Shown here one piece after another: positions 2,979 to 64,000 of a stretch of DNA of 64,000 nt. The notes under the pieces were generated by a model, which worked only from the letters and a program-made list of their open reading frames with translations, had not been told where the DNA came from and ran no database searches. Position numbers and translations under genes: made by a program. Origin of the DNA: Ligula intestinalis (Eukaryota > Platyhelminthes > Cestoda > Diphyllobothriidea > Diphyllobothriidae); NCBI GenBank assembly GCA_036362985.1, contig JAYGXS010000001.1, positions 52,059,061 to 52,123,060 of the forward strand. Direction: 5' to 3'. The first letter of the stretch is position 1, and the number at the start of each line of letters is the position of its first letter.

Positions 2979-3291
2979 CTATGAGGTGCACTACTTCAAC
3001 TACCTTGCCGTGACACTGTGCTACACTCATACGGGGACCAAATTACATGTATATGACACGCGTAAGATAGACACATCCTTTTACTTCAGCTAAAAAGTGC
3101 TCTTATTCTGGTGGACCGAAATTCCACCTTAATCCAAGGTGAGAGAGAGAGAGTTGGGATGCTATTGCTGCAGAAGGTGCCTCATTGGAATTAAGCTTAT
3201 GCATTGAATGTCGTGGTCTGGGACAGCTCGGTTCTTCTGGCTGAGTTTCACTCAGGAATATGCAATTACAATTAGCTTCTCAAAGTAAGCA

Positions 3292-3524
3292 AACTTCGTG
3301 TGGGGGACTAGGTGTCTCAAACAAGCGACTACCTCCCAGGCCAATACCGGCCATGTCCTAATAACAGCGAGGAATGACAAATTTTGGCGGTAGCTTGATA
3401 CAGAACTGTTTCGCGCTTACTTGCCTTCATTCAGCCAAGTATTACCCTGACCACTAACTGGGTCGGAAAGACAACCATACGCACAAGGAGATGGTCCACC
3501 ACTAGGGAGTTTACCAGATGGCTC
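3292..3524 (+). repeat. PLE-type terminal repeat, copy A (left part)
   Basis: It starts AACTTCGTGTGGGGG and matches, in inverse orientation, the stretch 6780-6489. Its right part resumes at 6370 after the Ty3/gypsy insertion, giving an empty-site reconstruction. On the minus strand it contains a hammerhead-like motif. The same family recurs at 38690-38880. Assignment to Penelope-like elements rests on the PLE endonuclease fragment directly beyond copy B. Confidence 0.6.
3385..3445 (-). ncRNA. Hammerhead ribozyme-like motif (decayed core)
   Basis: On the minus strand a stem I strand ending CTTGG is followed by CTGAATGA, a stem II hairpin, CGAAACAG, the loop TT, then CTGTA and TCAAG. Stem III is ACAG/CTGT and stem I pairs CTTGG with TCAAG. 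The core has one extra A compared with CTGATGA, so cleavage activity is doubtful. Layout is type I (open at stem I). Confidence 0.5.
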
Positions 3525-3529
3525 ATAAG

Positions 3530-3896
3530 TACTGTGCATGCCCGCCCGTAGTGTCGAGACCCCATGCCACGAGCGCACAACAAAGGACCAGCTAAGGTCA
3601 CGGGCACGGATCCAACTTTATTTTGTGCTGATTGACCAGCCTTCACTCTTGGCCAGCGGGTTCGCCGCTTTCCCTATTCTGACTGGCCAGCCTTCGGCCT
3701 ATTACTTTTACCCCACACCATATACGCCGCAGAGTCAACATGACTCCCGACTTGAACCGTACCCTCGTCCTCAGTACACGTCCTACCTAGAGACAGCCCT
3801 CTGTTTTGCCTACGTGACATTCTGCCTACAGGAAATCTTCTGTTTCACATACATTTCATTGGGCCTGCCTATGAACTGCCTTCCGGTTTTAATACA
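3530..3896 (+). repeat. 5' LTR of Ty3/gypsy element
   Basis: Directly repeated at 6026-6364. Both begin T(A/T)CTGTG and share long blocks such as GAGCGCACAACAAAGGACCA. This copy retains about 30 bases (around 3625-3655) that the 3' LTR lacks. It ends at TTAATACA. Confidence 0.8.
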
Positions 3897-6025: not shown

Positions 6026-6364
6026 TTCTGTGTATGCACACCTGTAGTATCGAGACCTCAGGCCGCGAGCGCACAACAAAGGACCAGCTAAGGTCACAGA
6101 CGCGGATTCACCCATCCTTTGTTCTGACTGGCCAGCGAGTTCACCCCTTTCCTTATTCGGACTGACCAGCCTTTGGTCTATTACATTTACTCCATATCAT
6201 TTACGCCGCAGTGTCAACATGACCCCCGACTTGAACTGTGCCCTTGTCCTCAGTACACGTGCTGCCCAGAAACAGCCATCTGTTCTGCCTACAGGGAGCC
6301 TTCTGCTTTACATACATTTTATTAGGCCTGCCTACAGACTGCCTTCCGTTTTCAACGCATAACA
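6026..6364 (+). repeat. 3' LTR of Ty3/gypsy element
   Basis: Direct copy of the LTR at 3530-3896. It follows a polypurine tract and ends GCATAACA next to the ATAAG target duplication. It is shorter than the 5' LTR by an internal deletion. Confidence 0.8.
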
Positions 6365-6369
6365 ATAAG

Positions 6370-6410
6370 CTCTTCGTCGATCCGAAGTTCATTAATGCCT
6401 CGCAACCTGC
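6370..6410 (+). repeat. PLE-type terminal repeat, copy A (right part)
   Basis: Continues copy A after the LTR element: about 32 bases from 6370 match, in inverse orientation, the stretch just left of CTTATGACCC near 6590, ending at AATGCCTC. This shows that the gypsy element was a late arrival. Confidence 0.7.
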
Positions 6411-6488
6411 CATTTACTATCACTGCAGATCAGGTATATATTCACTTATGAATGTGCAAATACCAAAACAGTTGGCTTCCTGGAGTAA

Positions 6489-6780
6489 AAAAACTTCGTG
6501 TGGGTAGCTAGGTGTCTCAAACCGGCGAAGACCTCTCCGGCCGACCGAGCCATAATGGCAGAGAGGCATTGATGAACTACGGTTCGATTAAGTGCTTATG
6601 ACCCATCGGGTAAACCCAAGTGGTGGACCATCCGCGCCATCTGCGTGTTAATTTGTTTGCATTTCCGGCCCGGCTGGTGGTCAGAGTTATGCTTGGCTGA
6701 ATGAAGACAAATAAGCCCGAAACAGTAACGTATGGTCCGGACAGGTCTACGCTGCGGTTATTTGAGTTGGCATCTGATTT
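6489..6780 (-). repeat. PLE-type terminal repeat, copy B
   Basis: Inverse copy of the repeat at 3292-3524 plus 6370-6410. On the plus strand it starts AACTTCGTGTGGG, so its minus-strand end is an inverted version of copy A's start, suggesting inverted termini. Read on the minus strand it lies just downstream of the PLE fragment at 6865-7419 and may be that element's end. Confidence 0.55.
6685..6730 (+). ncRNA. Hammerhead-like motif (decayed), copy B
   Basis: TGCTTGG, then CTGAATGA (6697-6704), a stem II of the form AGAC/GCCC, then CGAAACAG at 6718-6725. It has the same extra A in the core as the copy at 3385-3445, and its stem III is broken. It is probably inactive. Confidence 0.4.
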
Positions 6781-6864: not shown

Positions 6865-7419
6865 TTATAGACTGTGCATGGTGATGGGTGATCGTACATC
6901 CTTTCGCTTTACCGCTAAAGTAATCTCATGCAGGCGAGCTCTCAGTCGTTTATCCGTCATGCCCCTGTACTTGGTGCGACAGTCTAGATAGTCGACACGG
7001 TAAACAATGCCCGACGTAGCTGCCGGTGCTAGTCGGCTTTTGGGTTGCATTACTAAGCGGTGAATAGTTGCCTCTGGCCGTTGTCCCACGCCCACATTAT
7101 GCGGTCTGAGCACGCGCTCAACGGCCTCGGAGACGTTCCTCGCGCAGGGTAAGACAAGGAAGTTTTTCGTGATTTTGTTTTGGCTCGTGCTTATTCTTTG
7201 TGTCATTGGTACAGTCATTTGTCTACGAAACAACGTGGATGTCCATTGACGGGGGAATAGGCACGATCGGATATTACGTACGCATAGCTTCTTGTTCTCC
7301 TTGCTGCAATGCATCTGGATGTGGCGAAGAAGCGTCCAGAGACAACTGCGTTTATGTGAAACGGGATTATTACTGTTGCAATGCAGCATATTCACCACGT
7401 TGTTCGCTTTACGAAGCAC
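6865..7419 (-). pseudogene. Penelope-like element: linker and GIY-YIG endonuclease fragment
   Basis: A 184-codon minus-strand frame. An early segment, NPVSHKRSCLWTLLRH, matches the linker after the PLE reverse transcriptase. A later GIVYRVDYLDC, then KYRGMTDKRLRARLHEI, matches the GIY-YIG nuclease of Athena/Penelope elements, which normally read GVVYRIxC...YIGETGRxLxxRxxEH. The Y-I-G of the second half motif is changed to Y-R-G. The reverse transcriptase itself is missing, so this is a 5'-truncated copy. PLEs use this nuclease to open target DNA. Confidence 0.75.
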
Positions 7420-7639
7420 GCCTGTCCGTCCTCTTGCCTCGATATCTGGACATCAAGAACTGGGAGCACTGCCTTCTCGTGAATTGAATTGGTGGAAAAG
7501 TTGAGTTCAGTTCTCTTTTTAAGTAATCCTTAGGGCCTCAGTGTAGGATGAAGTGTCGTCTACGTAGCGCATCCAGATGCATACGCGGACGTCGCAAGAA
7601 GCGGTCGAAAGAAGACCCCAGGATCTGACTCGCAATTCT

Positions 7640-8816: not shown

Positions 8817-11453
8817 CTAAGAACATAAGACGCACATAAAGTAGTGTAACTAAGAGCAGATTGGAGTAACTGCAGACTTATTCATTCACTACAACTAAGT
8901 GGAGGATGAGAATAGACAAAAATCCGTCAGTGTCACCAAAACGATCTAAAAGATGAGAGAGCTACACAGTTGGAAGGAATGCGCTCGCGACCCAATGTGC
9001 ACTACCATAAAAGAAGACTGGCCGTGCAAATGACCAGTGCATGTGGATCTTCTAAGAAGGCTAACTTAGCGACGATGAAAGACATACGAAATAGCATTTT
9101 TTTAATTTCGAAAGCAAAATCTCCGACATTATTAATTTATAAATAGGTAACTATATAGTACAGATTTTCTTGACTCTTCACGCAAGGCTGTTCGACAGCA
9201 CGAAACTAAAGGGTCAACATATAAGAACAAATGTGGATGAAAAATTTCCCTTCAGTAATATGAATCTTGGGTGAATCCGTAAATGAGACTATAGAAACAT
9301 CGCGCTTTTCTAAATAAGATAAAAAATACGAGAACTGACAAAAAAACGGGGAGAGAGACGTGCTTTTAGGTACTCAGAATTCGAACGACAGCTTAATTTC
9401 ATTAAATATAACTTTCGGGTTACGTTAAAGAGCAAACGCTTGAGAGCATTAAGCAATTCGTTGTGGGTGCAACTTTCAATTAATTCCGGCCCCAAAATTT
9501 TCCTTTTGATCGAATTCAAATGTACTTTATCCAGAAAAGTTTAATTTTAAAAAACACCAGTAAATGCAGTGGTCAATAGTCTTAAGAGACTGAGTACTGA
9601 ACAACCGAACGACATAATATGAAAAATAATAGTCAAGAGAGTGAGAGCGTTCCATTGATTACTGATGGGAAAATGTATTAGGGCAATAAAATGTCAAAAT
9701 AAAGAGAACTCACTTGTTGACCAAAAGCAAATAAAATCAGGGAGCTGGACATTATAAGACCAGTCGAGAGGATCAAAACGCGCCGGGGAAAGCGATCAAT
9801 GAACAAGCAGGCAATTAAGGAAAACACCAGCTGCGCCAGACCAAGAGAAAAAGCACATCGCGCAGACTGAGATATGGGAACAAACTTCTGACACAACAGC
9901 TCGGTGTAGAAAGTTATGACATTTACACCAGTGAGTTGCTGAAAAATCATAAGATTGATAGCCATGCGCAGACGGGGCCGAAGTTGCGGAAGAACAGCTT
10001 TACAAGGAAACAGAAGGGATATCAGACTAAGCTGACCGTCATCAGCATCCGACTCTTCTGTTGCAGAGGAGGCTGACAGCTCTTCCAAGGCAATCAAATG
10101 CTGAAAAAATCCGAATAGTTGAAAGATATTCCAGATTGAAAGCGACAGTGAAAGCATCGGCAAGTTTAACAGGGTAGCACCAATGTGTATATATACCAAA
10201 CAGTAAGCAGGACAGCCAAAAAAGAAACCAAGTGTTTTACACGGCCTGGAGTTTTAAACATAAAATTGTGTCGTTCAAAACTTACATCTCCTCGAAGCCA
10301 GGAAAGATTGGCAACGGCTAGTTTCAGGTTGCCGTTCCGGGACAGCCATACGGGAGACTCCGGTAGATAGAAACATAGAACGAAGAGGACCGCAGTTGGA
10401 AAAAGCATCAACTTAGCTGTTTCGAACCACGTTTTATACATTCCGAACGCGTAAGCCAAGCAGATGCCCGCTACAATACCGAACTGAGCGAACGATCCGA
10501 TCTGGCCACGCTGGGAAGGTGGAGCCACTTCGACAAGGAACACAGAAGCAGTGGCGAGGAGCATGCCAGCCGCTACGCCAGTCAAAATACGCCCTAAAAT
10601 TAAGAGCGTAATCAGGCCGTTTGTTGGTTCGGAGGGTGGACTTAGTCCCTGTGAACAAAAAATCATGAACCATCCACCAAGGGCAGGCAGCGTAGATAAG
10701 CAAAGTGTTGTCCGGCGGCCCTTAAACGTGAGAAGGGGACCCACAAGAAGGCTGCCAATAAGCGCACCCAAATTGATCACACTGGAGAAGAAGGCCAGAA
10801 TAAAGTCGGCAAGTAGAAGTTGGGCGGATACCGATGACGAATACCCGAGAGTAACACCTTTATGATGGCAAAAAGGTCGGTCTTGTCACACAGCAAGAGG
10901 TGAAAGTGACATGAAATGTTATCAAATACATGACACACAAAATGCAAGTCGAAGGAAAAGGCAAACACAAAATTATAAAGCACTTATGGAGGAAAGGAGT
11001 GAGTGAAATAAGTGATAAATCGACTGCAAACTACTGTACTTCGTCCATGAACGAATTATGGAATGTGAAGCGGGACAATGCAACTGCCAGACAAGAACAA
11101 TGGAGCAACACGTGTATGAAAAGGAAACATAACAAACGTTTCAACAGAGTTCCTATTAAATATGAAGCGGCACGAGCCGCTGCACATGTACCTTATGCAC
11201 AGGAAGTACGTAAATCCATTCACGTAAATTCGGCGTCGGGCGACATGAAGCACCATTTAACATTAATCATATGAATTGTTTACAAGACATTCAATATCAC
11301 TGTTTAATTAAAGTACTCACCACCAGTAACAGAAGCGAGCAAAATAGACATCACTGTAAAATATAATCGGGCTGTCACTAATTTTCGTTTAACTGAGGCA
11401 GCGATTCTTCCCTGGTACGTTAACGTTAAACGCTCCAGTTTATGTCCCGCCAT
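8478..11453 (-). CDS. SLC2-family facilitative sugar transporter (four exons)
   Basis: The predicted 476-residue protein is a 12-helix major facilitator of the GLUT/SLC2 family, closest in pattern to class III GLUT8/GLUT6-like and insect Tret1-like carriers. Exons are 11453-11321, 10857-10286, 10100-9714 and 8816-8478; all have GT/AG introns and matching phases. Landmarks: LGYSSS (48-53) in helix 1, GRR (91-93), GRILTG (133-138), EVAPPSQRG (154-162), PESPVWL (210-216), WLRGD (231-235), QQLTGVN (289-295), DRFPRR (337-342), GWGP (387-390), PETN (459-462). The usual G of the second DxxGRR is P. No signal peptide is seen, as is usual for the family. It would move hexoses across the plasma membrane or an internal membrane; the substrate is not readable from sequence. 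Length is that of an intact GLUT, with no stops or frameshifts. Confidence 0.92.
9714..10100 (-). CDS. SLC2 transporter exon 3
   Basis: Acceptor TTTTTTCAG; begins HLIALEELSAS, the acidic central loop (TEESDADDGQ), then QQLTGVN in helix 7 and DRFPRR between helices 8 and 9. Ends AFGQQ before a GTGAGT donor, phase 0. Confidence 0.92.
10286..10857 (-). CDS. SLC2 transporter exon 2
   Basis: Acceptor CATAAAG then VTLGYSSS; covers helices 1-6 with the GRR, GRILTG, EVAPPSQRG and PESPVWL motifs. Ends WLRGD before a GTAAGT donor, phase 0. Confidence 0.92.
11321..11453 (-). CDS. SLC2 transporter exon 1
   Basis: Starts at ATG (11453-11451) in an AAAAATGGCG context. It reads MAGHKLERLTL, a basic cytosolic tail, then RLYFTVMSILLASVTGG leading into helix 1. 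It ends with one base of a split glycine codon before a GTGAGTAC donor, which the next exon completes. Confidence 0.85.
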
Positions 11454-23896: not shown

Positions 23897-25591
23897 TCAA
23901 AGTCCACGAACGCCATCAGAGTGAAAGAGAGATTCCACCGAGTCAGCACCCAAAATTCGTGAAAGTTGTCCTGAATGTAGAAAACTAGTTATAGCTCTCT
24001 TAAACATAGGGTAGTTTTGCTGGGTTTTAATACTTTTGGGCAGCTTATTCCAGATTGATATGGCATTTACTGAAAAGAATTGCCGGTACTTAACTGTGCG
24101 TGCCATAGGAAGAAATAAAAATACGTCTCGATGACTGGCGCGTCGAGAGTGCTCAAGCTGCCTTATTGTACTAAGAGGATTAAAGGTTTGACCATTCAAA
24201 AGTTTAAACAGTAAAAATAGACCCTTCTGCAATCGACGAAGCCATAGGGGATCCAGCTTTATAAGTTCGCACCTTTGTTGGTAGGTTAAGTTACGGTGTT
24301 CTGCAGTGAAAACTCTTCTAGTGAAGAAGTGCTGCACCGATTCTATTTTCTTCCGTTCACTAGTGCGCAGAAGACTGAATAAGGGTGAGCAGTATTCAAG
24401 ACTAGGTCTCACGTACATATTATAAAGGCTAGTTCTAACCTTGATAGTCTTAAAATTTCTAAGGATAAATCCGGTGGTTCGGCGTGCTTTCGAGACTATC
24501 AGGGCACAGTGCTCTGACAAATTGAAACTATTAGAGTAGGATATGCCCAAATCCTTGATAACTCCTGGGACATTTAATTCGTGGCCGTCAATGCTTAATT
24601 CCGGTTGATGATCGTCGCCAACAACCATAACGGAACATTTGTGCCATGAAAGGGTGAGGCGCCATGTGCAACACCACTGGGCGAAGGCCTGAAGATCCTT
24701 TTTTATCAGCTGGAGCACGATGTTGCGATCTGCCGGTTTATATCGATAAGCGACTTTTAAATCATCAGCGTACATGAAGGGTCTGCCATACTGAAAACAA
24801 TCTGAAACGTCGTTGACAAACAGGCAAAATAGGAGCGGACCCAGTACACTACCCTGTATAACTCCACTCCTCACATGCGTGGGGTTGGAGATAACATTCG
24901 AAATTTTTACTCGTTGTGTGCGAGCATCCAAATAGGAAGATATGAAGTTCAGAGGCTTGCTACCTATGCCGAAGGAGGCCAGTTTCAGAAGGAGGAGTTT
25001 ATGATCAACCCGATCAAAGGCCTTAGTAAAATCCAAATAGACGCTATAAGTGGCAAAACCGCTGTCTCTAGATTGCAGCACATAATCAAAGAAAGAGAGC
25101 TGGCAGGTGTCACAAGATCGTTTCTCGAGAAAGCCATGTTGAGCTGTACTGAGCAGGTTGTTCTCTGTCAAGTGACGCATCATCTTTTCTTTGATTAAGG
25201 TCTCCAAGATCTTCGATGCTGCGGGAAGTGTATTTATTGGCCTAAAGTTGTCGAATGATGTCGATCGGCCATGCTTGCGAATAGGCATTATGTGCGATTC
25301 CTTCCACAACGAAGGAAAGGTTTCGCTCTCAAGAGCAAGATTAAATACCTTACAAAGAATAGACGGAAAGATATCATTCGCTTCAGCTTTTAGAAGGCTA
25401 ACTGGGACGCCATCTGGTCCTGGACTATAGGATTGGCGATAACGAAGAATGGCTACAGTCACATCCCAGACGGTAAAACTTATGGTTTCGAGTATGGCAC
25501 CCGTCCAAGCCCGGATAACTGGAGGTGCAGCGAACGAGCTTTCACTAAAATTTTTTTTGGATAGGAACGCATTGAAGCTATCGGCGGTCAA
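23897..25591 (-). pseudogene. LINE pol, C-terminal part: reverse transcriptase
   Basis: About 564 codons following the TAG directly in frame. RT motifs are complete: YSPGPDGVPVSLLK, MPIRKHGRSTSFDNFRPI, QHGFLEKRSC, VYLDFTKAFDRVDHKLLL (catalytic D), SGVIQGSVLGPLLF, MYADDLKVAY (catalytic DD), LSWHKCSV and VIKDLGISYS, then the conserved C-terminus with SLEYCSPLFS and AISIWNKLPKSI. Apart from the single upstream TAG it would be functional; translation of this half alone would need readthrough or reinitiation. Confidence 0.92.
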
Positions 25592-27226
25592 CTAAGCGTC
25601 AGCTGTGGGGTTTCCTAAAGCATCTTGAAGTATGGGGTGTTGCGTTTTCCTCTGCGCTTTTACTGTACGCGAAAAGAGTTTCGCAACATTAAGGGAAGGG
25701 TTTTCAGCGAAATGAGCCTCATCGGCTATCTGCTTTTCTTCGGAGAGCTTCTTAGCCTGCTCAAAGATCAGTGTGATCAAGGGCAGAACGGAAGTGTCGT
25801 TCTGCCGATGCAAACGACGAGAGAGTTTACGCAGCCTACGACGGAAAGACAGAGGAAGGTACACTTCATCCTTGACATGTATTACTTTCTTACGGGGGAC
25901 AAAGTGGAGGATGAGTGGATCCAACACTTTGTACAGTGCATCGGTACAAACATTTACATCCAAACATTGGAAAAATTCAGACCAGTCGATAGCGTTTAGA
26001 TGTGCCAGTAGGTCAGCCGTGTTTGCTGATCGGAAGTCATGATAAAAACTATACTTTTGGGAAAATGTTTCATCCGCCTCCAGTTCTAGTTCACTAACAA
26101 CTGTAAGATGGTCTGAACTCCCAAGTGCGTCTAAGGATGAGACTGAAAGTGGTTCGCATCCCCTACAAAAAATTAGGTCGAGTATGTTTGCTCCTCGAGT
26201 GGGAAAATCGACTACCTGATCCCACATGCCGATATCTATTGCCTCAAGTAAGTTCTCGAACTTTGAAGGACCGGATGGTGGAAACCATTGCACGTCAGGA
26301 AGGTTAAAATCGCCTGCAATCAAGCAATACTTAAGATTCAAGTCAGCTGCGGCATGAAATGCCTGCGAGAGACAAAGATCGTAGTCTGCATTGGCAGTAG
26401 GTGGGCGATAAACACAGCCAACAAGTAAGGAGTATTTGTTTTTTAGAACAACTCGTAGCCAGCAGCTCTCCTCCACCGCTGTGAATTGTGGATAGTCCAA
26501 CGGGAGAAATGCAAGTGGCTGCTTAATATAGATGCAGCTTCCTCCGCCACGGCCATTGTTTCGATCGTTCCGAACGCATGAATAGCCTAGAACAGAGAGT
26601 TCTGAGTCAGCTACAGAGGCCGATGCCCATGTCTCAGTTACCATAACAATGTCTGGGCGGTTGACGAAAACCATAGTCTGGAGCAGAGGCATTTTATTAA
26701 TCAGTGATCTGGCATTTAAAACGACCAATTTAAGAGGGCATGTCTGAGGTTTCGGTGGCGGGACAGCTAGGCCGTCACTGTTACCGGCTTCGACCAGAGC
26801 GATGTCCTTTTGACCTGAACTATTTTTCCCTCTCTTATTTTGAGATTTGTCTCGCCATTGGATCTCCGTTTTTCCAGCTCTATTATTAGCTGTCTCATCT
26901 TTCTCCGCTCTTTCAACTCGTAATCCGGCTGAAAAAAAAACTTGCGAATGCAGACTCCGTAAGGATGGTTTGCGCTCTAGCAAGAGTTTCGCCTGTGCTT
27001 CAGTTTCTAAAATAACTTTTAGAGGTCGTGGCCGAGAAATTGATTCTGGAGCTGTTGGAGCCTTCCCTATTCGAAATGCCTTAAGAATGCGGAAAGACTC
27101 ACCTGGTTTTAGCAACGGTTTGGCGTACACTCGCATAAGACCCACGTCATGGTCAATTCGTTCTTGTGCAATCGACGACTCTGACTCTGGGGCCCCCTTT
27201 ACAACTATTTTCTGCTTGCGACTCAA
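25592..27226 (-). pseudogene. LINE pol, N-terminal part: ORF1-like segment and APE endonuclease
   Basis: About 544 codons. Residues near 30-120 (LMRVYAKPLL, FRIGKA, PRPLKVILETEAQAKLLL) are the ORF1-like domain seen in flatworm CR1 elements. From about 167 the apurinic endonuclease has all landmarks: LNARSLINKM, VMVTETWAS, GGGSCIYIK, VGCVYRPP, IAGDFNLPDVQW, ILDLIF and GSSDHLTVV, so the catalytic N, E, Y, D, N, D and H are present. The endonuclease nicks target DNA to prime reverse transcription. No ATG starts the frame; it is open from 27286. It ends at an in-frame TAG, after which the RT continues in the same frame. Confidence 0.9.
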
Positions 27227-28147
27227 TGGGGCATATGTTGCAAGCTCACGTGCTTCAGCCGAGGGAGCAGAGTGTTGGACAGAGTGCTAAACCTGGTCCG
27301 TGAAATGGAAAAGTCTGGCGAGAGATGGACAATTTTTCAAGATGTCAAAAATTGGTGGCCTTGGGATAGCCAAGTGTATATCATGGGAACCCTCACGTGC
27401 AACTAACCCTAGTGATGTATGCTGCTTACTGTACAATAATCAATGCGGTTATTAGTCGACAACGACTGTTAATTTCGACAAAAATCTTTCAAGTCGTCAA
27501 AACAAAAAAATCAAAATTAAAGACAATAGAGCCTTTTACAACTGTTTTCGAGAATCACCAAAAAGTAGAACGTTGTTTCCTCGCTAAGGTCCTAAGATTT
27601 CCGCCATTCGCCATTGATTTTCTAAATTATATGTAGGACCAATTAAATCAAATTTTGAATTTTTTATAAGCAAAGTCAGAGTTCTGCATCTTGATCCCTG
27701 GCAACAAGTGCCAATCTATTCCGTCAGATGAAACAACCCTGCCATTTAGCCGCTTCGTCCCTCGTAACTAATAGGGATTGTTTTAATGGGATATTGTTTA
27801 CTAATGCTGTGAACTTTTCGAAATTTTCTATGATGGTTGAGGAAAGTGAAGAAGAGATTTCAAGTAAAAAATCTCTTCACCGTTAAACTCTATTCAAAAC
27901 CCAAGTCCTTGGTTTAAGTTTATTTATCACCAATGGCAGGCACAGCAATTATTACATTTTCACACACTGTAGATGCAGTATTAAAAAAAAACAGAAATGA
28001 AATTTTCAGTGTTTTCCAAGATCGAATAAATAGCTGTACGAACTAGAAGCTGAATTTTTATGTAAAATTCACATTGAAGGTTCTTGGTTGAGCCTGTTGG
28101 TTACCCAATGTACCAACTACAAGTTCTTCGTTTTTAACGTTCTTATG

Positions 28148-34400: not shown

Positions 34401-37400
34401 GTGTCAATATCTCCCGACCTAAATCGGCAAGACAACGAGGGCAATGGTTACGACGTTCGATTCCGATCTAAAAGGTCGCGAGTTTGAGCGTCGAATGGTG
34501 CTAGCTATGACTGGCTGTCTGCGGCTAATAAGCCAGAAATAGCCATTACATGTTCCTTTGTCATTGCTGGCAATACTTTGTGCTCACTTTATTAAAGTTT
34601 CCGCTAGATTCTACCACCTCATTAAGAACCAGTGCAGTGGATCGAGTGTGCGAGTTTTTGCAGATGGTGTGTATTAAAGAAGAAGATTCGATCGATGGGG
34701 CAACACTTTTATTCACCAGTGACTGAATCTTCTTCTCACTTACTTCCTGGAACTTGCATGTTCGCTTGTACTGGCAGTAATTAGTATGACAAGTATGAGC
34801 ATCGTACTGGCAGTAAGTAGTACGACAAGTATGAGCATAGTGTAGTTATTTCCTTGAAATTTTTAGCATAAAATACAGTGTTGACACAAGGACAGTCAGA
34901 CCACTGCGAACAATAATGTACACCGTGTGTCTTCCACGACGGGGGACGGTGACCTATGCGTGGATTATTTTATAATGATAGCGGGCCTCGAAGATAGCAG
35001 ACATCACAGTATTTTTTGCACTCTCTCCTATCTCACTTCCCCTGGGTCTGCTGCAAAGACATATTCAGCGAGATCAGTTGTGGAATCGTGTGCGGCGACT
35101 AACAAAGCTAAGCAATCCGTCTACGCGTGTCTCAAACGCCTGGTCTGAACAAAGTTCATCAAAATTCGTTGGATAATTTATAAAAAAATAATAAAACACC
35201 AAAATTTAAAAATTTGTCGACGTTTTGACTGGGTTATTGCGGAAAGACAAATTTATGTCAGCAGGCTGTGGAGCTATAACGACCATAGAGTCTTTCTGGA
35301 ACACGATTTTCTATGGTTTTGTGCTACATGACGGAAGTCTACTTAATTAAAGTGGAAAAGGCCACTTTGTTGTACTTCTCAAAGAAGCAAAGTTATTTCT
35401 ATTATCACAGTTTTTTTGTTCCTTTGATGCAGAATTTGAACGGTCCCATGCAGTCTTATGCCCCACCTCTGAGTAATGAAACATTTAAGCAGAATGTCGG
35501 GAAATTTTCAAACTCCACTTACCTGCCTTTCACTACAACAGCATTAACTGGCACATCTAGAGGCATACTCATTGTCTGGCAAACCAGTCATCGCCCTAGG
35601 AAAGGTATGTCGATGGAGCATTCTCGCTTATTTTCCGTTTTCATCTTTGCAGTGCGCAAGAAACCTCACTTTATAATTCAACTGATATTGGAAGGTTCTT
35701 GCTCTAACGCTCATTTTCTGGGCTTATTAACTTATTAAAATGTACTTAATGCGCGTTGTCTACTTGCCAGTGAGGGTCACTTCTGCAGACCGTCAGCTCA
35801 AAGCAACTTTAAGGTAGTGGAGGCCAGACGAGACCGGTGCAGTGCTCTGAGTTATCAGTGATTGCTTGCTTTCCAAAAGCCTCCTTCTTTTCTGGACTAA
35901 GGTGATAGAATGGATTAAAGTTAATCAGCCATAACTCGAACTTCTTATCAAAAATATGAAGTCAGTCAGAAAATACTCCGATTACTGAAGTTGTATAGGT
36001 ACAAGACACTTATATTTGAAATGGAATAACGATAATTCCTGCAACGCGAAAACAGGAAGTTCAAGACAGAATATAAGAAAATGTAGGATAACGTTTGGCA
36101 ATAAGAGCTTATCGGTGCGTGCACCTTCCTAAACATCCTACAAATATTGAAGGAACTTTGCCACACCTAAGGAGTAGAAATGGGTGTTGCCACGTATGGG
36201 AAGAGGTATATTGGACTGCCATAGTCATTACAACACACAACAACAAAATGCGGAATTTTTTTAACATTAGGAGTTTCTCGCATTTAAGTCCATTAAAAAA
36301 CCACTTCCTTTCACATTTTGTATGCCTATATACTCGGTTATTTAGTCTATCAACGAACAAATGTAGAAAGTGAAACCCAACTTATACGTCTAGAGCCTAA
36401 CGCAAGTCCGTAAGGACTCAAGTAGTTCAGCTTCTTAAGCCTGTATTTTAACAGGTCACGTATCATGCAGCGTGCTTAAACTACACTGAGATCATAAAAT
36501 CTCCTTTACAGTTCTCTACCAATCATCGACATTTTCATCATGACAAAATTCCTCGCTGACATTTTTATCGAGGCTAACGATCGTCATGCCTGCTTTTCAA
36601 ATAAAGCGTATTTAAGTAACATAACCGTGCGAAAACTACGATCGAGTCATCGTTGGTTTGATTCTTGTCAGCGCAGGCGTTTGCGTAGGATGTATGTTAA
36701 TTCTCTGATGCCACCTTTTGAGGAATAAAACTAAATATTCGACCCATAGAACATAAACATAAATGAAGCAGGCAGTTTAATTTGATTGGCGAAAATATTG
36801 GATATAAATTAAGTTTTTTTCCCGTGCACCTAGAACCTTGGCAGATGAAATAGTTCAACCGTATTTCTCGACGATGTCCATCGTATGCCTCATATAAGGG
36901 TGGGTGCAGGAACGGTGTTATGGAGGGAAGAAGTGCACGCTTTTTGAGTCATGGCCGCAGGCCGGCCGCGCACTCCCCGAGCACACGTGACGCCCGCGCA
37001 CACGTACACTGCAGATGTTTTAGAAACATCTTGCAGCGTGGGGAACCGCGAATTAGCATGCACGCCAGAATCCCCTTCGTATGCGATTGGTCAGGATTAG
37101 TCTAGAAGGACCAAAGCCTTATAACAGGCTGTGGTGGACACGCTAATTTTCTTATTCTGTTGTCTCTGTATCGTCGTGAATAAAGGCCTGCTATCAGGAC
37201 CATTCACTTGGCTTATTCTGCCTATTAGTCGGGCCAGAATAAACTGGGCTATAACAGACGGTCACTTATGCTTGATTTAGTCTATAATGATAGTATACTT
37301 CTGCAGTATCTACCGCAATCTCTCCTTCTCTCCCTCCTGCGCCAGATATCTTTACCATCTCAAGAAGACCGAAGGCCGGGTGTCTGACGTGACGAGAATC

Positions 37401-40400
37401 CGCACCTAAGCATGCCACCTCACTGGATCTCATGGAATGCGAGTGCCATAAGGGGCATATTAAGATGAAGCCTTCGCAGTCTGACTCTTAGTCAAAATGC
37501 AGACCAGCCAACACAAACGTATGCTGGGCTGACTCTGGGGTCTGGCGTGCATTGTCCGTTGGCAACCTTCCATGCCATGCCTTCTAACCCACCGTGGTAG
37601 TCCGAAGCATGTCAGTTTTTTATATTAAGAAATAAGCGCTGAGGTTTAATGGCTCCCTCTCTGCCCTTCCCCAGACGCCAGTCGATTGTCCAAGCCGGTT
37701 AACCAACTGATGTTGAGATATAGACAGGCAATCTTTTGATCTGTGCGTACCAGATAAGACCTGTAGTCTCACGCCATGCACGCGGAATTCACACAAAGGG
37801 ATAAACTGCTCGGATTGAACATGTACCAGAAGAGCCACATGGAGGAGGAGCCGAATAACACATTTCCCAGTGGTGCCTAGGTCGTGCCTGCGGAGTGTAA
37901 TGTTAGACGTGTTTATGTGTGGCGTAGGTGCTAGTGTGGAGGTAGTAGGTGATGCGTTATGACCGGCGGTATTCTACCGTAGATTGAAATGGAGGCGCAT
38001 GTGGCCAAATAGGTGACTGAATATGCATGGGTAGTGCGGGAAGCTGGGTCGCGTGCGGCAGATGTATTTCAATGCTCGTCGGTCTTTGTATGGTGGATTC
38101 GCATTTGACCAAAGAGGCCAATGCGCGGCGTGCAATTGCGGTAGCAACTTGGACACGATAGGCTGACAGCTGCAGAATCAGTTGCGGCGGGAAGGTTTCT
38201 GATGATATCCGAACTGGTAAAGGGAACATTGGTGGTGCTGGAGATGGAAGAGTTGACCAGTGTGCAAGGTGTGTTTATATTGCGCTGAACCCCGCTGTTG
38301 TGAATAGACTTGCAGGATACGTGAGAACAGTAGTGGTTGCCCTGAAGGTCAGCTCAGGGGGCCGACGGGAACGGAAATGCTGTGTTTAGGCCCACATACA
38401 CGCGCAACACTGGATACCTTCCTCTAATTTAGTCAACTGATCGAGGTGATTACCGGGGTACAGCCGATGGGCAAAGCCTAGCTTCGGAGAGTCGCAGGTG
38501 AGAATTGGGTGTCAGTAAAGGGGCGTGAGAAGCGGACAGCAGCTGCACGTGATACGTGATGCGAAGTGGTAGAACCTACACGATTAAACATTTAACTAGT
38601 CACCGTTACACTTCTGGCTCCCCAACCAACAAGTTGTGCAGAATAGTGAAACTGGTTTTTGAAGTTCCACAGGACTTCCCGCACGCACATTTATATCTAT
38701 TTATATCTGATAGACACCAGTGGTGGACCAACTGCGCCGTCTGTGAGTGCGTTTGTTTGTGTTGTCCGACCAGCTGGTGTTCAGGGTTATGCTTGGCTGA
38801 TGAAGGCTAATAAGCCCGAAACAGTTCTATATCAAGTTACCCCCAGATGCTGTCATACCCCACTTACTGCTTTATCTATATATATACAGGGTGTCCCAAA
38901 AAATGTACACACATTTTACCTATTTTTAAAATTGGTGATTATCATAATTGTATCATTAAATAAGTGTAAAGATATTTACAAGTACCATTTTATTGTTTTT
39001 ATAACTCCATGTTCTGAAACTGATGTCCAATTTGATCATGACACTGTTAACAACGCGAAGCAATTCGATCGCACATACCATGGAACAATTCCCTTGGTAT
39101 TCAGGTGCATTCATTTTCAGCCTCTGTTGTAGTTATAAAAATGCAGTGAAAAACTTATAAATGATGCTTTTCAATATTTTTACGTTTTTGAAATAAAAAT
39201 TACAATCAACACCAAGTTTACAATTACTTAAAATGTGTATACATTTTTTGGGACGCCCTGTATATATGAATGAATGTAGGCGTTTCAACCGATCTAGTCA
39301 GGGAACAATTAAGTTCCGCCTTGCCAAGGAGCTCGTAACGCAAACCCTCAAGACCGTCACACAGTGATAAAGGTGAGATGATTAGGTAGTGGATCTCGGG
39401 GGTGACAGCCCTCGAGATTGGGTATGACTGGCTGATGATGGCTAATAAGCCAAAAATGGCCATTGCGGTCTCCCTTTGCTTTGTCGGATCCACTAATTCA
39501 TTATTTTTGTGTCCGTAAGTTCCAGTTTTATTGGTATTATGTTGTTTAATTTCGACTATTTCATTAACCTTACAGTTGTAATTTCTAGTACGTTTATACG
39601 ACCATTTTGCTGAGGCGTACTATACTGCACTGCGACGTGAGTTGGTAACAGTCCAAACTTCTGTTTGTTCATGTTCTCTCCCAGGTTACACCTGCAACAA
39701 ATCTGCATTTTATAAAGTCTAACTCTGAGGCCTTCTTTTTTTCTAGCTTTTACACAGGAATCATGCTACAAATCCGCCGTAAAGCTGGTTCCAATACATA
39801 AAACAGCAATCACTTTCCTTGGAATCACTTCTTGGTAGGTTATCCGAGTGCCTCCTTACAGGAGAAATTGTGTCACCTTAGTTTTTAGACCGCAATATCT
39901 AACATGCAAGCTAGAGCGTGAGTTAAAACTTGAAAGAATTCTCCAAGAGCAAGTAGCGTACTATTCTCAGCCACTGAATTAATTTTATTTAATTCTGCTG
40001 CAATTTTTGCATGGTTGTTTTAATAAAGTATGCCCATTTGGTCTGAGTATGGGCAAGCAGTAGGTTCTGCGAACACTTCTTCCTGCTGTCAACTACAACT
40101 GTATATTAGCAGCTTACTTGCCGCTGCTCCTTGGATAACATATGTCTTTCACAGGCCCTAAGCAAGCCTCATTTATGGATCCTCACTTCAGGAAGACGCG
40201 CACCGGAGTGGTGTAGTCAGATGACCAAGTAGCGGCATGCATGAAACAAATGTGGCTCCTTGGCAAGCCTAGGATATCTTGTTTGCGGTTTGGGAGGACC
40301 TGGATGTAAAACAGCAGTTTATTTTATGCCTGAACTCTGGGCACGTTCTCGTTTGTATGAAAAAAGAAAAGAAAGAATCAGTAGAAAGTAATTTTTATTG

Positions 40401-49400: not shown

Positions 49401-52400
49401 AAAGAAAGTAAAGTAAGTAAAGAAAATCCGTCGTAGGAGTCCATGTTACACTGGTCACAGAATAGATACGAAGGAGGAGGGCCTATGAGTAATTCTTTTT
49501 TGGATTATAAAGACCTAATGGATTTTGCCATTCGGCAGTGACCTTATTCTGAAGCCTTTTTCTTGGTATCCTTTTCGATGGCTTTGCTGATCACTAAAAG
49601 CGACAGATTCACAAAAACAGATACTTCGTCGACTCACAGATCTATTGTTCTGGAGCAGCTAGCTCAGTCTCCTCCAACATTTATATTTACTGCGAAGTAA
49701 AGTTTAATTGACCCTTCGTGCATATTTAATCAAATACACTGCATTTATTTAACTATTATATGTTACTATCCTCCCATAGAATATCATTTTTTAGGCAAAG
49801 ATGCCTTGTTGCAATGTTAGTTTTATCCTTCTTTACAGTGGAATCAAATATCCCTTTCTTATCCCTGGTCCACTGGCCAACGGTCGCATTCATCGCACGG
49901 ATCCTTTACCATATGTTTGATGACATATTTCAACTTTTTTAAAACACCAAAACCTGCGATCTCGTTCTGAACGACGCAAATATTGCTTACCCAGCAGTCG
50001 AGACAGAGTGCCAACCACCGTTCTGCGTAACTGCATCGTTTCCCGACCACAATCCATGAAAATTCAGTTGTCAGTCCCAAAGCTACTGTCTGGCGTTGGA
50101 AATTAAGATCTTCTCAAACCCCTGTTGGGCTATTTCCCGGGACATTTTAAGGATCATCAAACAATTTACACGTCATTGATTTAACACGTAGATTCGGTAT
50201 ATAAGGTAAAATTGACGCTCCAACCTCTCATCAGGCGATCTCCACGGGTTAGGAAAATTTAATTTTATGAAAGTAAACGTATCCCAGCAGTGTTGCTGCT
50301 TTACCTCTCATTCTTATTTTAGTCGGTGTCGTAAACATCCTTAAATTAGGCTGTGTTTAGAACCGACTGAAAATTTCTTATGTTTTACTTCTAATTTTCA
50401 ACCAACTAATGAAGTAAACCGGGGGGTTTAGAGTCAAATTCTACGTTTCAACTCCAAGACTTAAACATAAACTCCTAAACGAACATTCTGGGCTATTGCG
50501 TTCAAAGGGAAAGGTTAAAATTGCAGAGCCTAGTTTTCACTATAATTATTGGGTTCGATTTTAAGATGCATTCTCACCTCAACGCTATCGCGCATCTCTG
50601 TTTTTCAAGTTACAAATCTGCAAATTATTACCTGCACAGTATATTCTACAATTATATTTGTAATAGTATTTTTGGATTGTGAATTGACTTTTTTCATTTT
50701 TAGTTTCAAAATCCCTCTAAGCTCGGCTTGCGCGCCCTCTTCCCTTTCAGGTAGAGTACGACCTACCAAATTCTAGGGATGGAAATCTAGAGTTAAGAAC
50801 GCGGACAAGGGTGGAACAGCGCGCCATACCCAGGTGCTTTGCATCAATGGGCCGCTACTACCAGGAAGACTTCATCTGCATTGCAAACTCCGAGTCCAAA
50901 CTGAAGCTTATTAATATGGTGACATTGATGTGCCGAAAGACAGTACTTGCGCCGTTGCAGTGTCCCCATTATCGAAGGTTGGCACTTCTATGAACTTGGT
51001 GATATATTACTGCTCAATTTTATGAGGATTTGGTCGCATACATTAGCCCTGCTGATGACTAAATAAGACACATTCGTTCCAAATGGGCTGCATTGAAGCT
51101 TTCGGAACTAGTTAGCGGCCTAACTATACCCAGGAGGACTGAGGTCTAAATAACGTTGACTGGTATGTATGTTGCTTGCAGTCAAAACTGATGGTTTTAG
51201 GCCGCGAGTATCGGAGACTCCGAATCGAACCAGTCTCTTCAAGAAAAATAATCCATCTTGAGAGGTACAGCCTCTCTTTAGTGTGCTATGGTTTGGAGTA
51301 TTAGAAAAGTAACTCATTCGGTTTTCCCAGAAAAAAAAGAAACATTGCTGCATAATGTACTGTGATACGGGTGTAGTACAGTCAACAGAAGATTCAACGC
51401 TGCACCACTGCATTGAGTGGCCTAGCTGACGCAAAATACCGGAATTTACGAATGCTGGATAATCACACCCAAATCGGCACCAACGTCTGTACCGAAACTT
51501 TTAAATCCTACTGATGAGACTTAAAGGAAGCATGAGGAGTTATCTTACTTAGCTTAGAAAAACTAGCTTTGCGGCCTTGGAGGGAGATTTTCACAATTGG
51601 GTTAAATTAATTATTGAAGTCTACCAAAATTATTTAGGAAAGCGGCAGATTCAAAAGCGTGAAAAGTTGCTGCAAATATTACGAATAAATCTACCTAAAA
51701 TTGTGAGGTGAAATCCTAAACATGCCATTTTATGAAATGGATTCGACAAAGCAAAGGAAGAACGGAATGGTCATTTCTGGCTTATTAGCTGTCATCAGCA
51801 ATTCATGCTCAATTCCAGATGTGGCTTACACGGGATTCGAACCCGGGACATTTTGTCATTGAGGTTATTGCTCTACCATTGCACCACGGGCTCTACCATT
51901 TTAAGTTTATCACGAAAACTTTTCTTTTGCCAAATTTTTATCGGTATTTCTGGTATTTAATTGCAATGAGTTTCAGCTCGGTGAATACCTTATGTTTTGC
52001 ATGACTTCCTTTCAATCAGTTGGCCATAAATTTGAATTCCGTTCGATGCGTTTACCAACATATTCAAAATAAAATATCTCTTTAAAGCATTTGCCGAATT
52101 GGTGGGTTTTCGGGAATTCATTTCGATGCAGATGGCCATTTTGATCCTATTTGTAGACTCACCCAAACATTTAAATGCATTGCTGAGAAATATGAGTGCC
52201 CCAACTCATAGCTGACAAGAAATATGCTCAACGTCAATTTAAAGAAGTTCTTCAGTATGTTATCTCCTTAAAAAAGGACTTAATTTATATATTTTGATGA
52301 CGAATATTTGCGTCCGTTCCTTTTCTAAGGTTATGCCAAGGTAAAAAAGGTGAAACGATGTCCGGATTTTCTGACTTTCTGTAGAATTTGTGTTACTATT

Positions 52401-59977: not shown

Positions 59978-60150
59978 GAGCCCGTGGCTCAATGGTTAGA
60001 GGTTTGGACCTTCAACCGACAGGTTGCTGCTTTGAGCCTCGAATGGTGCAACACCTGAGGTTGGATATGGCTGACTGATGACAGATAACAACCCAGAAAG
60101 GGCCATTCCAGTTTATCTCGTCTTTTTTGGTAATTGTCTTTGGCCCATTA
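59978..60150 (+). mobile_element. tRNA-derived SINE with hammerhead-like tail, copy 4
   Basis: GAGCCCGTGGCTCAATGGTT (A box), TGCTTTGAGCCTCGAATGG (B box), then CTGATGACAG, an altered stem II and CAGAAAGGGCCATTCC. The head is close to copies 1 and 3; the ribozyme part is partly decayed, with GAAAG in place of GAAAT. Confidence 0.65.
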
Positions 60151-61749: not shown

Positions 61750-62560
61750 CTTCTAAAAGAGAGGTTGATTGAACGGCGGAGACCTGTTCAGCTGGGGAAA
61801 GAAGCTTCAGGGCTTGTCGATAACTTTTTATTCGGCGCTCGGTATTTCACAAAAATACCTGGAGAGGGCAATACCTACACTTTACGAGTTTTGTGCCAAT
61901 ACAATGGAGACAAAATGTGGTGTACACTCTTTTTTAAAGAGCGAGGAATATTTACTATAGTGAGACTTTTCCTGCAGGGCCTTCCCTCATCAAAACAGCC
62001 GTACTTATCCTACGAGTTTCATCCAAAAGTACAGCAATCCTTTACGGCCAAAATTGACGGATAAGTCGGTTCCGAAAAAGCTCGTCATTATACCCTTACC
62101 ATTTCGAATGTAGCCAAGCGATTGTTTTACTGTACCGTAGAAAGGACGTACAACGCAGCTGAACTTGTCTTCATCAGTTCTACTGAAAGCCTTACGGTAA
62201 AAGGGGCAAATGATGCCTTGCCATTGCACGCCACCCTAAATTGTATCTATGATTCCACTGCACTTGCTGATGCACGTACGTTGGGCGTACGCAAAGGCAA
62301 CTGGCAGCCAAAGCCCCTGAACACTTGCCTAATTGGCTTTTCAAGCAAGAAGTCAGAGTACGACTAACTTTGATTACTAAACCCCTGCTAGACCGTGGTC
62401 AATCAGTTGACCTCGAAACACCTTTCCCAGTACTTGTTCGAACACGAACAAATCGGACCCTGCGTTGCTTGGAAGCAGCCTACATACGGTGGGAGAAGCC
62501 CGACCTGTGCAAGCAGCTAGACCACGTGACAGTTAGTTTTAATCATGACTTGGTTTGCGC
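61750..62560 (+). pseudogene. Penelope-like element: linker and GIY-YIG, decayed
   Basis: Frames read VERTYNAAELVFISSTESL, LPLHATLNC, then RKGNWQPKP and NWLFKQEVRVRLTLITKPLL, homologous block by block to the PLE at 40985-41790 (RTYPASKLLYIST, LPMHATSNC, KWLLRAENQIPKSSITKPLV). The GIY-YIG core is scrambled by a frameshift. It is the 3' end of one PLE copy; 330 bases later another begins. Confidence 0.7.
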
Positions 62561-62989
62561 CAACTTCCTCTCCCCCTCCCTTTCGCCCTGTAGGCTGATT
62601 TAATGAAGTTTCCTTCAGTTTATCATTATTTACACAGAACTATGACCCCTACTGCTATACATTGACATTCTACGAAATTCTATCTGCTGTATGCTTTCGT
62701 CCGTCACCTGACTCACGCAACGACGGGATGCAGTTGAAAAGCCGTCGCAAAATTTGTTCAATTCAACAAATCCTGCTGTCTACGCTTGTTTTACATTCGT
62801 ATCGGAGAACCATTTCTTCAGAATTTTTATTCGCTGATTGACCCAAACTAAGGCCGGTCAAAAGAGACACAAATTTAAGCTACCATCTCGCATATATTGA
62901 AGATGGCAGATAAAGGTTTGTCACTAGTGGGCAAAATTAGTGCTGAATTAACTAATAGCTCAAATTCTGCAAATATTCCCATGGTTAAT

Positions 62990-64000
62990 ATTAGAAGTCA
63001 GTTTATGGCAAACACTAAGACCTGTAGGAACGACGATACCTAGAATGTATGGACTTCCGAAAATTCACAAACAGGGGCTACCTTTACGTCCTATCCTGGA
63101 TATGAGAAACTCCCCTTATCACACCATTGCTAAATGGCTGGTAGAAAAACTGAAACCTCTTGGAAGTTACATGTATCCTCGAAGCCTGAAATACACATTT
63201 TTATTTGTTAAAGGTATAAAGAATATGAATGTTGCAAGAAGTAAGATGCTCTCATTGGATGTATCCTCATTATTCACTGACGTACCCGTGGCAGAAACCA
63301 TCAACTACCTCTGCGACGTTATTCGGGACACGAACTACCAGATAGGTATGCCCGTGAAAACCCTCAAAGATCTCCTTACGCGCTGCACACAAGATGTCCA
63401 ATTTCTCTGCAATGGTCAGTTTTACAGATAGATAGATGGTGTGGCGATGGGCTCAACACTTGGACCGTTTCTTGCAAATGTCTTTATGGGCAAGATCTAG
63501 AAAACGCGTCTAGGGGACACCATAAATGACCTTGCATTCTACGGTCGAAATGTAGGTGATATCTTCTGTTTGACAGACTATAACGTTGACATTGACGCCT
63601 TGGTCGCGAAGTTTAACAGCGCTCACCCATCGCTCAAGTTTTCTGCTGAGACTAAAGTGGACGATGAAATTGCGTTCCTTGATGTCCTTCTGCGAAGGCA
63701 AGAGGATGGATCTATCCTACGCAGGGTTTTCCGAAAGAAAACCTGGACAGGACAATACACTATTTTCCACAGTTTTGTCCTCCTTAATATAAAACGAAAT
63801 CTGGTCCAGGGATTAGCAGCTACAATACGACAGATCTGTTCTCCTAAAACTGTCGAAGCAGAACTTCAACAGCTGCAGCATACACTAATTGAAAATAGAT
63901 ACCCGGAAAGGTTCATCCTCAGAAATATTGGTGAACGCGCCAAAAAGCCTGTCACCTTAACTGCAGAAAAGAAAGACGTGTTCATAAGACTGCCTTTCTT
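62990..64000 (+). pseudogene. Penelope-like element reverse transcriptase (runs off the window)
   Basis: One frame runs through the PLE RT: TLRPVGTTIPRMYGLPKIHK, LPLRPILDMRNSPYHTIAKW, LSLDVSSLFTDVPV (catalytic D), DGVAMGSTLGPFLANVF, then NVGD at 63549-63560 where YVDD is expected, KVDDEIAFLDVLLRR, TWTGQYTIFHSF, and the linker ENRYPERFILRNI. Two in-frame TAG stops (63429-63431, 63498-63500) interrupt it; there are no frameshifts. The endonuclease lies beyond the window. With the active-site loss it cannot be functional. Confidence 0.9.

Follow-up and report, generated by a model that had tools for sequence, protein, structure and literature searches.

An old tRNA-headed SINE family with a hammerhead-like central domain in the tapeworm Ligula intestinalis

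Among the systems closest to the one described here are the hammerhead-bearing repeats of Schistosoma mansoni and S. japonicum, in which hammerhead matches are reported to exceed 38,000 and 5,000, respectively; the same paper derives the Sm-alpha-like SINE elements of S. mansoni from tRNA-Gln-TTG (PMC2770079). The Sm-alpha hammerhead is classed as type I in a study that also reports functional evidence for hammerheads (PMC8490949), and schistosome repeats are reported to contain a full tRNA (PMC4918200). Two further papers describe non-LTR retrozymes and the minimal type I hammerheads of Penelope-like elements (PMC7229834, PMC7761336), while for Sparganum and Spirometra the proportions reported are 1.1–1.2% for SINEs and about 10% for Penelope (PMC8166898). 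No hammerhead SINE from a tapeworm appears among the titles and abstract openings listed in a literature search. Here we analyse a repeat family of this kind in Ligula intestinalis; all copies and counts refer to one 64-kb stretch of its DNA, which we call the window.

A dispersed repeat family with a tRNA-like head

The window holds four copies of one dispersed repeat family, referred to below as S34, S39, S51 and S59. Head and tail are common to three of them (34430 on the plus strand, 51893–51744 on the minus strand and 59978 on the plus strand), and the tail only is found at 39432 on the plus strand. We built four nhmmer profiles, each from three copies, and searched with each for the copy left out; all four copies were recovered, at E values of 1.7e-12 (S34), 7.4e-18 (S59), 3.4e-20 (S51) and 1.5e-19 (S39), the match covering head and tail in S34, S59 and S51 and the tail only in S39 (39409–39494). 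By blastn, the tail at 51738–51813 matched 39417–39492 with 84% identity over 76 bases (E = 6e-19). Because every left-out copy was recovered, the repeat is real, and the four places assigned to a single family in a preliminary description of this DNA are correct. The main subject of our analysis, S51, occupies 51733–51895 on the minus strand and consists of a tRNA-like head, a hammerhead-like domain and a short 3′ tail; its limits are taken from a candidate target-site duplication, and its profile match runs from 51735 to 51892. The remaining copies lie on the plus strand, S34 at 34435–34586, S59 at 59978–60146 and the tail-only S39 at 39409–39494. A weak profile match on the minus strand at 32260–32183 (E = 0.11), extending from the B box to GAAA, is perhaps a worn fifth copy.

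The 5′ end of S51 carries the A and B boxes of a type 2 RNA polymerase III promoter. The A box, TGGTGCAATGG at 51876–51886 on the minus strand, agrees exactly with the consensus TRGYNNARNNG, and the B box, GGTTCGAATCC at 51833–51843 on the same strand, is likewise exact. An exact A box and an exact B box at a spacing of 25–70 bases occur together once in the window, in S51, and simulation gave a mean of 0.0015 such pairs per window (4,000 simulated windows). In S59 the A box, TGGCTCAATGG at 59985–59995 on the plus strand, fits the consensus and the B box is degraded, as is that of S34; the perfect B box noted previously is therefore exact in S51, but in that copy only. Identity among the three heads is 49–62%. 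ARAGORN reported no tRNA on the window, and the Rfam tRNA model gave no match on the window, nor close round S51 and S59 up to an E value of 10. A second exact B box (GGTTCGAATCC) lies at 53376 on the minus strand, unaccompanied by an exact A box within the spacing scanned.

Pairwise identity between the copies is 55–66%, from which we conclude that the family is old. A candidate target-site duplication of eight bases, TAAAATGG, flanks S51, with its 5′ copy at 51896–51903 and its 3′ copy at 51725–51732 on the minus strand (p = 0.011; an equally long common word was found in 1.1% of 2,000 random flank pairs), and the head begins two bases from it. No such duplication was found in S34, S39 or S59 (p = 0.51–0.93). 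Recent activity, which had been proposed from the perfect B box, is contradicted both by the identity values and by a duplication detectable in one of the four copies; an intact B box in a single copy does not show that a family has been active recently.

These features also bear on a different origin, in which the copies are what remains of a non-LTR retrozyme that spread as small RNA circles and the tRNA-like head is a passenger promoter. The length of the element, about 160 bases, is near the 170–400 bases reported for animal retrozyme RNAs, and retrozyme-like repeats are reported from platyhelminths; animal retrozymes are described as tandem, however, and the four copies here are single (PMC7229834 for each of these points of comparison). 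The head of S51 moreover starts near the candidate target-site duplication rather than at the cleavage site, a SINE-like arrangement, and we regard a retrozyme origin as quite unlikely.

When translated frames of the copies were compared with predicted proteins, ten candidates were considered and none matched up to an E value of 10. Pattern scans returned one match in a viral collection and two in a prokaryote collection, none resembling a SINE relative, and blastn revealed no partner retrotransposon with a common 3′ tail in the window. Other content of the window includes a LINE on the minus strand at 23897–27286, with two adjacent open frames of 564 residues each from stop to stop, one for an endonuclease (PF03372) and one for a reverse transcriptase (PF00078). 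A sugar transporter ORF at 10166–10885, also on the minus strand, matches a protein of the tapeworm Dibothriocephalus latus (order Diphyllobothriidea) with 97% identity across 65% of the query.

Conservation and pairing of the hammerhead-like domain

In the tail, CTGATGA is followed by a short hairpin whose loop is of the TAATAA type, then by GAAA and by a stem III that is palindromic, of the ATGGCCAT type. In S51 the domain spans 51760–51804 on the minus strand and comprises stem I (51804–51799 with 51765–51760), CTGATGA (51798–51792), stem II (51791–51788 with 51781–51778), GAA (51777–51775), stem III (51774–51767) and the predicted cleavage base H17, a U at 51766. The domain lies at 34509–34553 in S34, at 60069–60113 in S59 and at 39426–39470 in S39. 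CTGATGA is present in S39, S51 and S59 and mutated to CTGTCTG in S34 (at 34515); GAAA is present in S34, S51 and S59 and replaced by AAAA in S39; and the loop is TAATAA in every copy except S59, which reads TAACAA (60086–60091). The motifs listed in the preliminary description, the palindromic stem III included, thus exist, but each of the first three is carried by only three of the four copies. A CUGANGA and GAAA core with both parts intact and correctly spaced is found in S51, in S59 (two of four copies) and in the majority consensus. H17 is U in all four copies, and U is a weak cleavage base at this position.

The four copies can be aligned without gaps over 73 columns round CTGATGA. Within the element, the most conserved window of 33 columns coincides exactly with the block that starts at CTGATGA and ends at the predicted cleavage base, with a mean pairwise identity of 0.80 compared with 0.54 for the rest, a result matched in 0 of 20,000 column permutations; part of the low identity outside the block is alignment noise, because alignment is easiest where conservation is highest. 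This profile is as expected of a ribozyme domain, and the conservation of the block hints at a role for the domain in the active period of the family.

Pairing is complete in no copy. Across the four copies, 18 of 24 cells are paired in stem I, 10 of 16 in stem II (one of four pairs in S59) and 13 of 16 in stem III. Pairing over the whole structure is 73%, and it drops to 23–54% when the 3′ partners are slid by one to three columns. Among 3,321 six-base helices, stem I at the hammerhead register ranks 33rd by weighted score and 36th by pair count; at least 18 paired cells are reached by 58 of these helices, 40 of which also include a two-sided change, and stem I alone is therefore unexceptional. 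Within single copies, the register ties for first place with four or five other offsets out of 38 in S39, S51 and S59, and comes 13th in S34. One stem I pair has changed on both sides (C-G, and A-U in S51); covariation within the four copies was not above that of shuffles (254/500), and since shuffles yield a two-sided change about as often, covariation proves nothing at a depth of four copies. The closing pair of stem II, 10.1:11.1, is C.A in S51, S59 and S34 and U-A in S39, and active hammerheads need G-C at this position. The present copies lend no support to the idea that transcripts of these elements may self-cleave, given that none of the four combines a full core with three stems and that 10.1:11.1 is mismatched in three. 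The minimum-energy folds of single copies are not hammerheads.

We scored the window with a hammerhead descriptor consisting of the core and 14 pairs, and compared the scores with those of 4,000 simulated windows that keep the dinucleotide make-up. The highest score, 12, belongs to a motif at 38797 on the plus strand, outside the four copies; S51 scores 10 and S59 scores 9, while S39 and S34 fail at the core. The best score was 12 in nine simulated windows, at least 10 in 208 and at least 9 in 570, so that S51 and S59 are unremarkable when taken singly. The majority consensus of the four copies forms 12 or 13 of the 14 pairs, depending on ties, and setting a consensus against single simulated windows is not a like-for-like comparison. 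The argument is thus built on the family, on how conservation is distributed along it and on its majority consensus, rather than on single copies. Two further candidates on the minus strand, at 32434 (score 9) and 57260 (score 7), belong to no repeat found here and were taken as chance.

The Rfam hammerhead models gave no match at the gathering threshold on the window, and none on the four copies up to an E value of 10, S34 being covered only within the whole window. Rfam is a weak test here, since a complete-looking hammerhead elsewhere escaped it: in L003, on a contig of the bacterial metagenome-assembled genome UBA6025, inspection by eye shows at 482–542 what looks like a complete hammerhead of type III, with stem III CTATTCGT/ACGAATAG, stem I CAACG/CGTTG, stem II GTCC-TAATAA-GGAC and GAAA, and it goes unreported by Rfam at gathering.

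One may postulate that what is conserved is an ordinary central domain of a SINE, with a superficial resemblance to a hammerhead. The lack of an intact copy, the mismatch closing stem II, the lack of an Rfam match and the non-significant covariation are all compatible with such a domain; yet the limits of the conserved block are exactly those of the hammerhead core, pairing at the hammerhead register persists in the flanks despite their lower conservation, and anything as good as the motif at 38797 turned up in only nine of the 4,000 simulated windows. On balance, an ordinary domain appears unlikely.

A second repeat family and putative Penelope-like sequences

The motif at 38797 belongs to a separate repeat family with a related motif, which was missed in the preliminary description and has copies at 38705–38859 on the plus strand (Q38), 6605–6726 on the plus strand (Q66) and 3519–3371 on the minus strand (Q35). 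The Q38 motif, at 38791–38837, is the best-scoring hammerhead-like motif in the window, and a permissive Rfam scan reported 38781–38853 on the plus strand as HH9 at 19.4 bits, against a cut-off of 52 (E = 4.6). The core of Q66 and of Q35 contains an additional A (CTGAATGA). In each of the three copies stem II is closed by an A.C pair, which brings the mismatch at this position to six of seven motifs (three of four in the first family, three of three in the second). The nhmmer profile of the four SINE copies found Q38 at an E value of 7e-7 and Q66 at 0.17, and Q35 was not listed; the leave-one-out profiles found Q38 at 1.2e-6 to 2.1e-6, and blastn linked Q35 and Q66 to Q38. The match between the SINE domain and Q38 extends over 32 bases by blastn and about 50 by nhmmer. 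Six of six stem I pairs form in Q38 and five of six in Q35. Over six copies (the four SINE copies, Q38 and Q35; Q66 was excluded, its 3′ side being disrupted), the hammerhead register pairs 29 of 36 positions, the best of 34 shifts, the next reaching 25; this sum leans towards the hammerhead register because the register between the two families was set by the hammerhead model. The stretches 3247–3892 and 6028–6726 have three blocks in common, in differing order and orientation, and one of these blocks bears the second-family motif.

An ORF on the minus strand (6865–7452) lies about 140 bases away from Q66, and the two are convergent. The nine database matches of the ORF are to Sparganum proliferum (six) and Spirometra erinaceieuropaei (three), and seven of the nine carry the precomputed domain PF26215. 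From inspection by eye, we take this ORF to be the end of a Penelope-like element, and the stretches at 41768–41190 (minus strand) and 61830–63998 (plus strand), which match each other, are presumably Penelope-like fragments on the same grounds. No hammerhead-like motif was seen by eye in the inspected stretches of these two fragments, and a Pfam search up to an E value of 1 gave no match for the ORFs at 6868–7452, 62952–63431 and 63501–63998. With the neighbouring ORF convergent and without a Pfam match, we infer a Penelope origin of the second family rather than observe it.

In a rival scenario, the domain of the SINE came from a Penelope-like element or is held in common with one, and the SINE owed its mobility to the reverse transcriptase of that element rather than to that of a LINE, the hammerhead acting as a common processing signal. 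Minimal type I hammerheads are reported in the pseudo-LTRs of Penelope-like elements, which are given as likely mobilisers of retrozymes (PMC7761336), and the scenario would account for the resemblance of the SINE domain to Q38 over 32 to about 50 bases, for an ORF so close to Q66 whose matches are all in Sparganum or Spirometra, and for the two mutually matching fragments. We nevertheless consider it somewhat unlikely: the Penelope-like label comes from inspection by eye and the three ORFs have no Pfam match, the convergent orientation of the ORF leaves the second family linked to it by neighbourhood only, the SINE profile reaches Q66 only at an E value of 0.17 and does not list Q35, and the stretch common to the two families stops at the motif, so that no common 3′ end is shown. 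A broader version, which we find distinctly doubtful, assigns the hammerhead to a whole SINE superfamily of tapeworms as its conserved central domain: subfamilies whose tRNA heads are diverged, and perhaps of different kinds, would retain a single ribozyme domain in common with Penelope-like elements and rely on it for copying by a Penelope-type reverse transcriptase; if true, this would amount to a SINE partnership other than with LINEs. The second-family motif provides a handle on the question of which retroelement mobilises SINEs of this sort.

Origin of the family and comparison with known systems

The explanation we favour is that the copies are probably old members of a tRNA-headed SINE family whose central domain is derived from a type I hammerhead of the minimal sort. 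The ancestor probably carried such a hammerhead with a tiny palindromic stem III, and the present copies, which have decayed, are probably dead or feeble as catalysts. A tRNA-derived SINE with a hammerhead-like tail, as originally proposed, is a supported description of the ancestor, given the conservation, the stem I register, the second family and the A and B boxes, but no copy in the window is intact. In an active ancestor, RNA polymerase III would start at the head, where the boxes are observed and transcription is predicted from them. The domain would then cleave the transcript 3′ of H17, and would probably do so as a dimer, given the loopless stem III. The RNA would be reverse-transcribed by an enzyme of the host genome, and insertion would produce a short target-site duplication, of the kind seen in one copy.

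To judge from the titles and abstract openings listed, what is new here is a decayed tapeworm family; the tRNA-headed hammerhead SINEs of flukes, Sm-alpha and Sj-alpha, were already known. A tapeworm family built on the schistosome plan would imply that the joining of a tRNA promoter to a ribozyme either dates far back in parasitic flatworms or took place more than once. Like Sm-alpha of Schistosoma mansoni and Sj-alpha of S. japonicum, the family belongs to a parasitic flatworm and unites SINE-like features with a hammerhead-like domain; unlike them, its host is a tapeworm rather than a fluke, it has no intact copy in the window, and its stem II has a TAATAA loop and a mismatched closing pair, a distinction drawn from descriptions of those elements. 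With the minimal hammerheads reported from Penelope-like elements and Terminons it shares the type I order and a vestigial stem III that would need a dimer (PMC7761336), whereas the domain of the SINE family is joined to a tRNA-like promoter. Finally, it resembles the metazoan non-LTR retrozymes in that it is short and non-coding and has a hammerhead-like domain of type I order, as these are reported to have a type I hammerhead (PMC7229834), and differs from them in that its copies are not tandem in the window and bear a head with A and B boxes.
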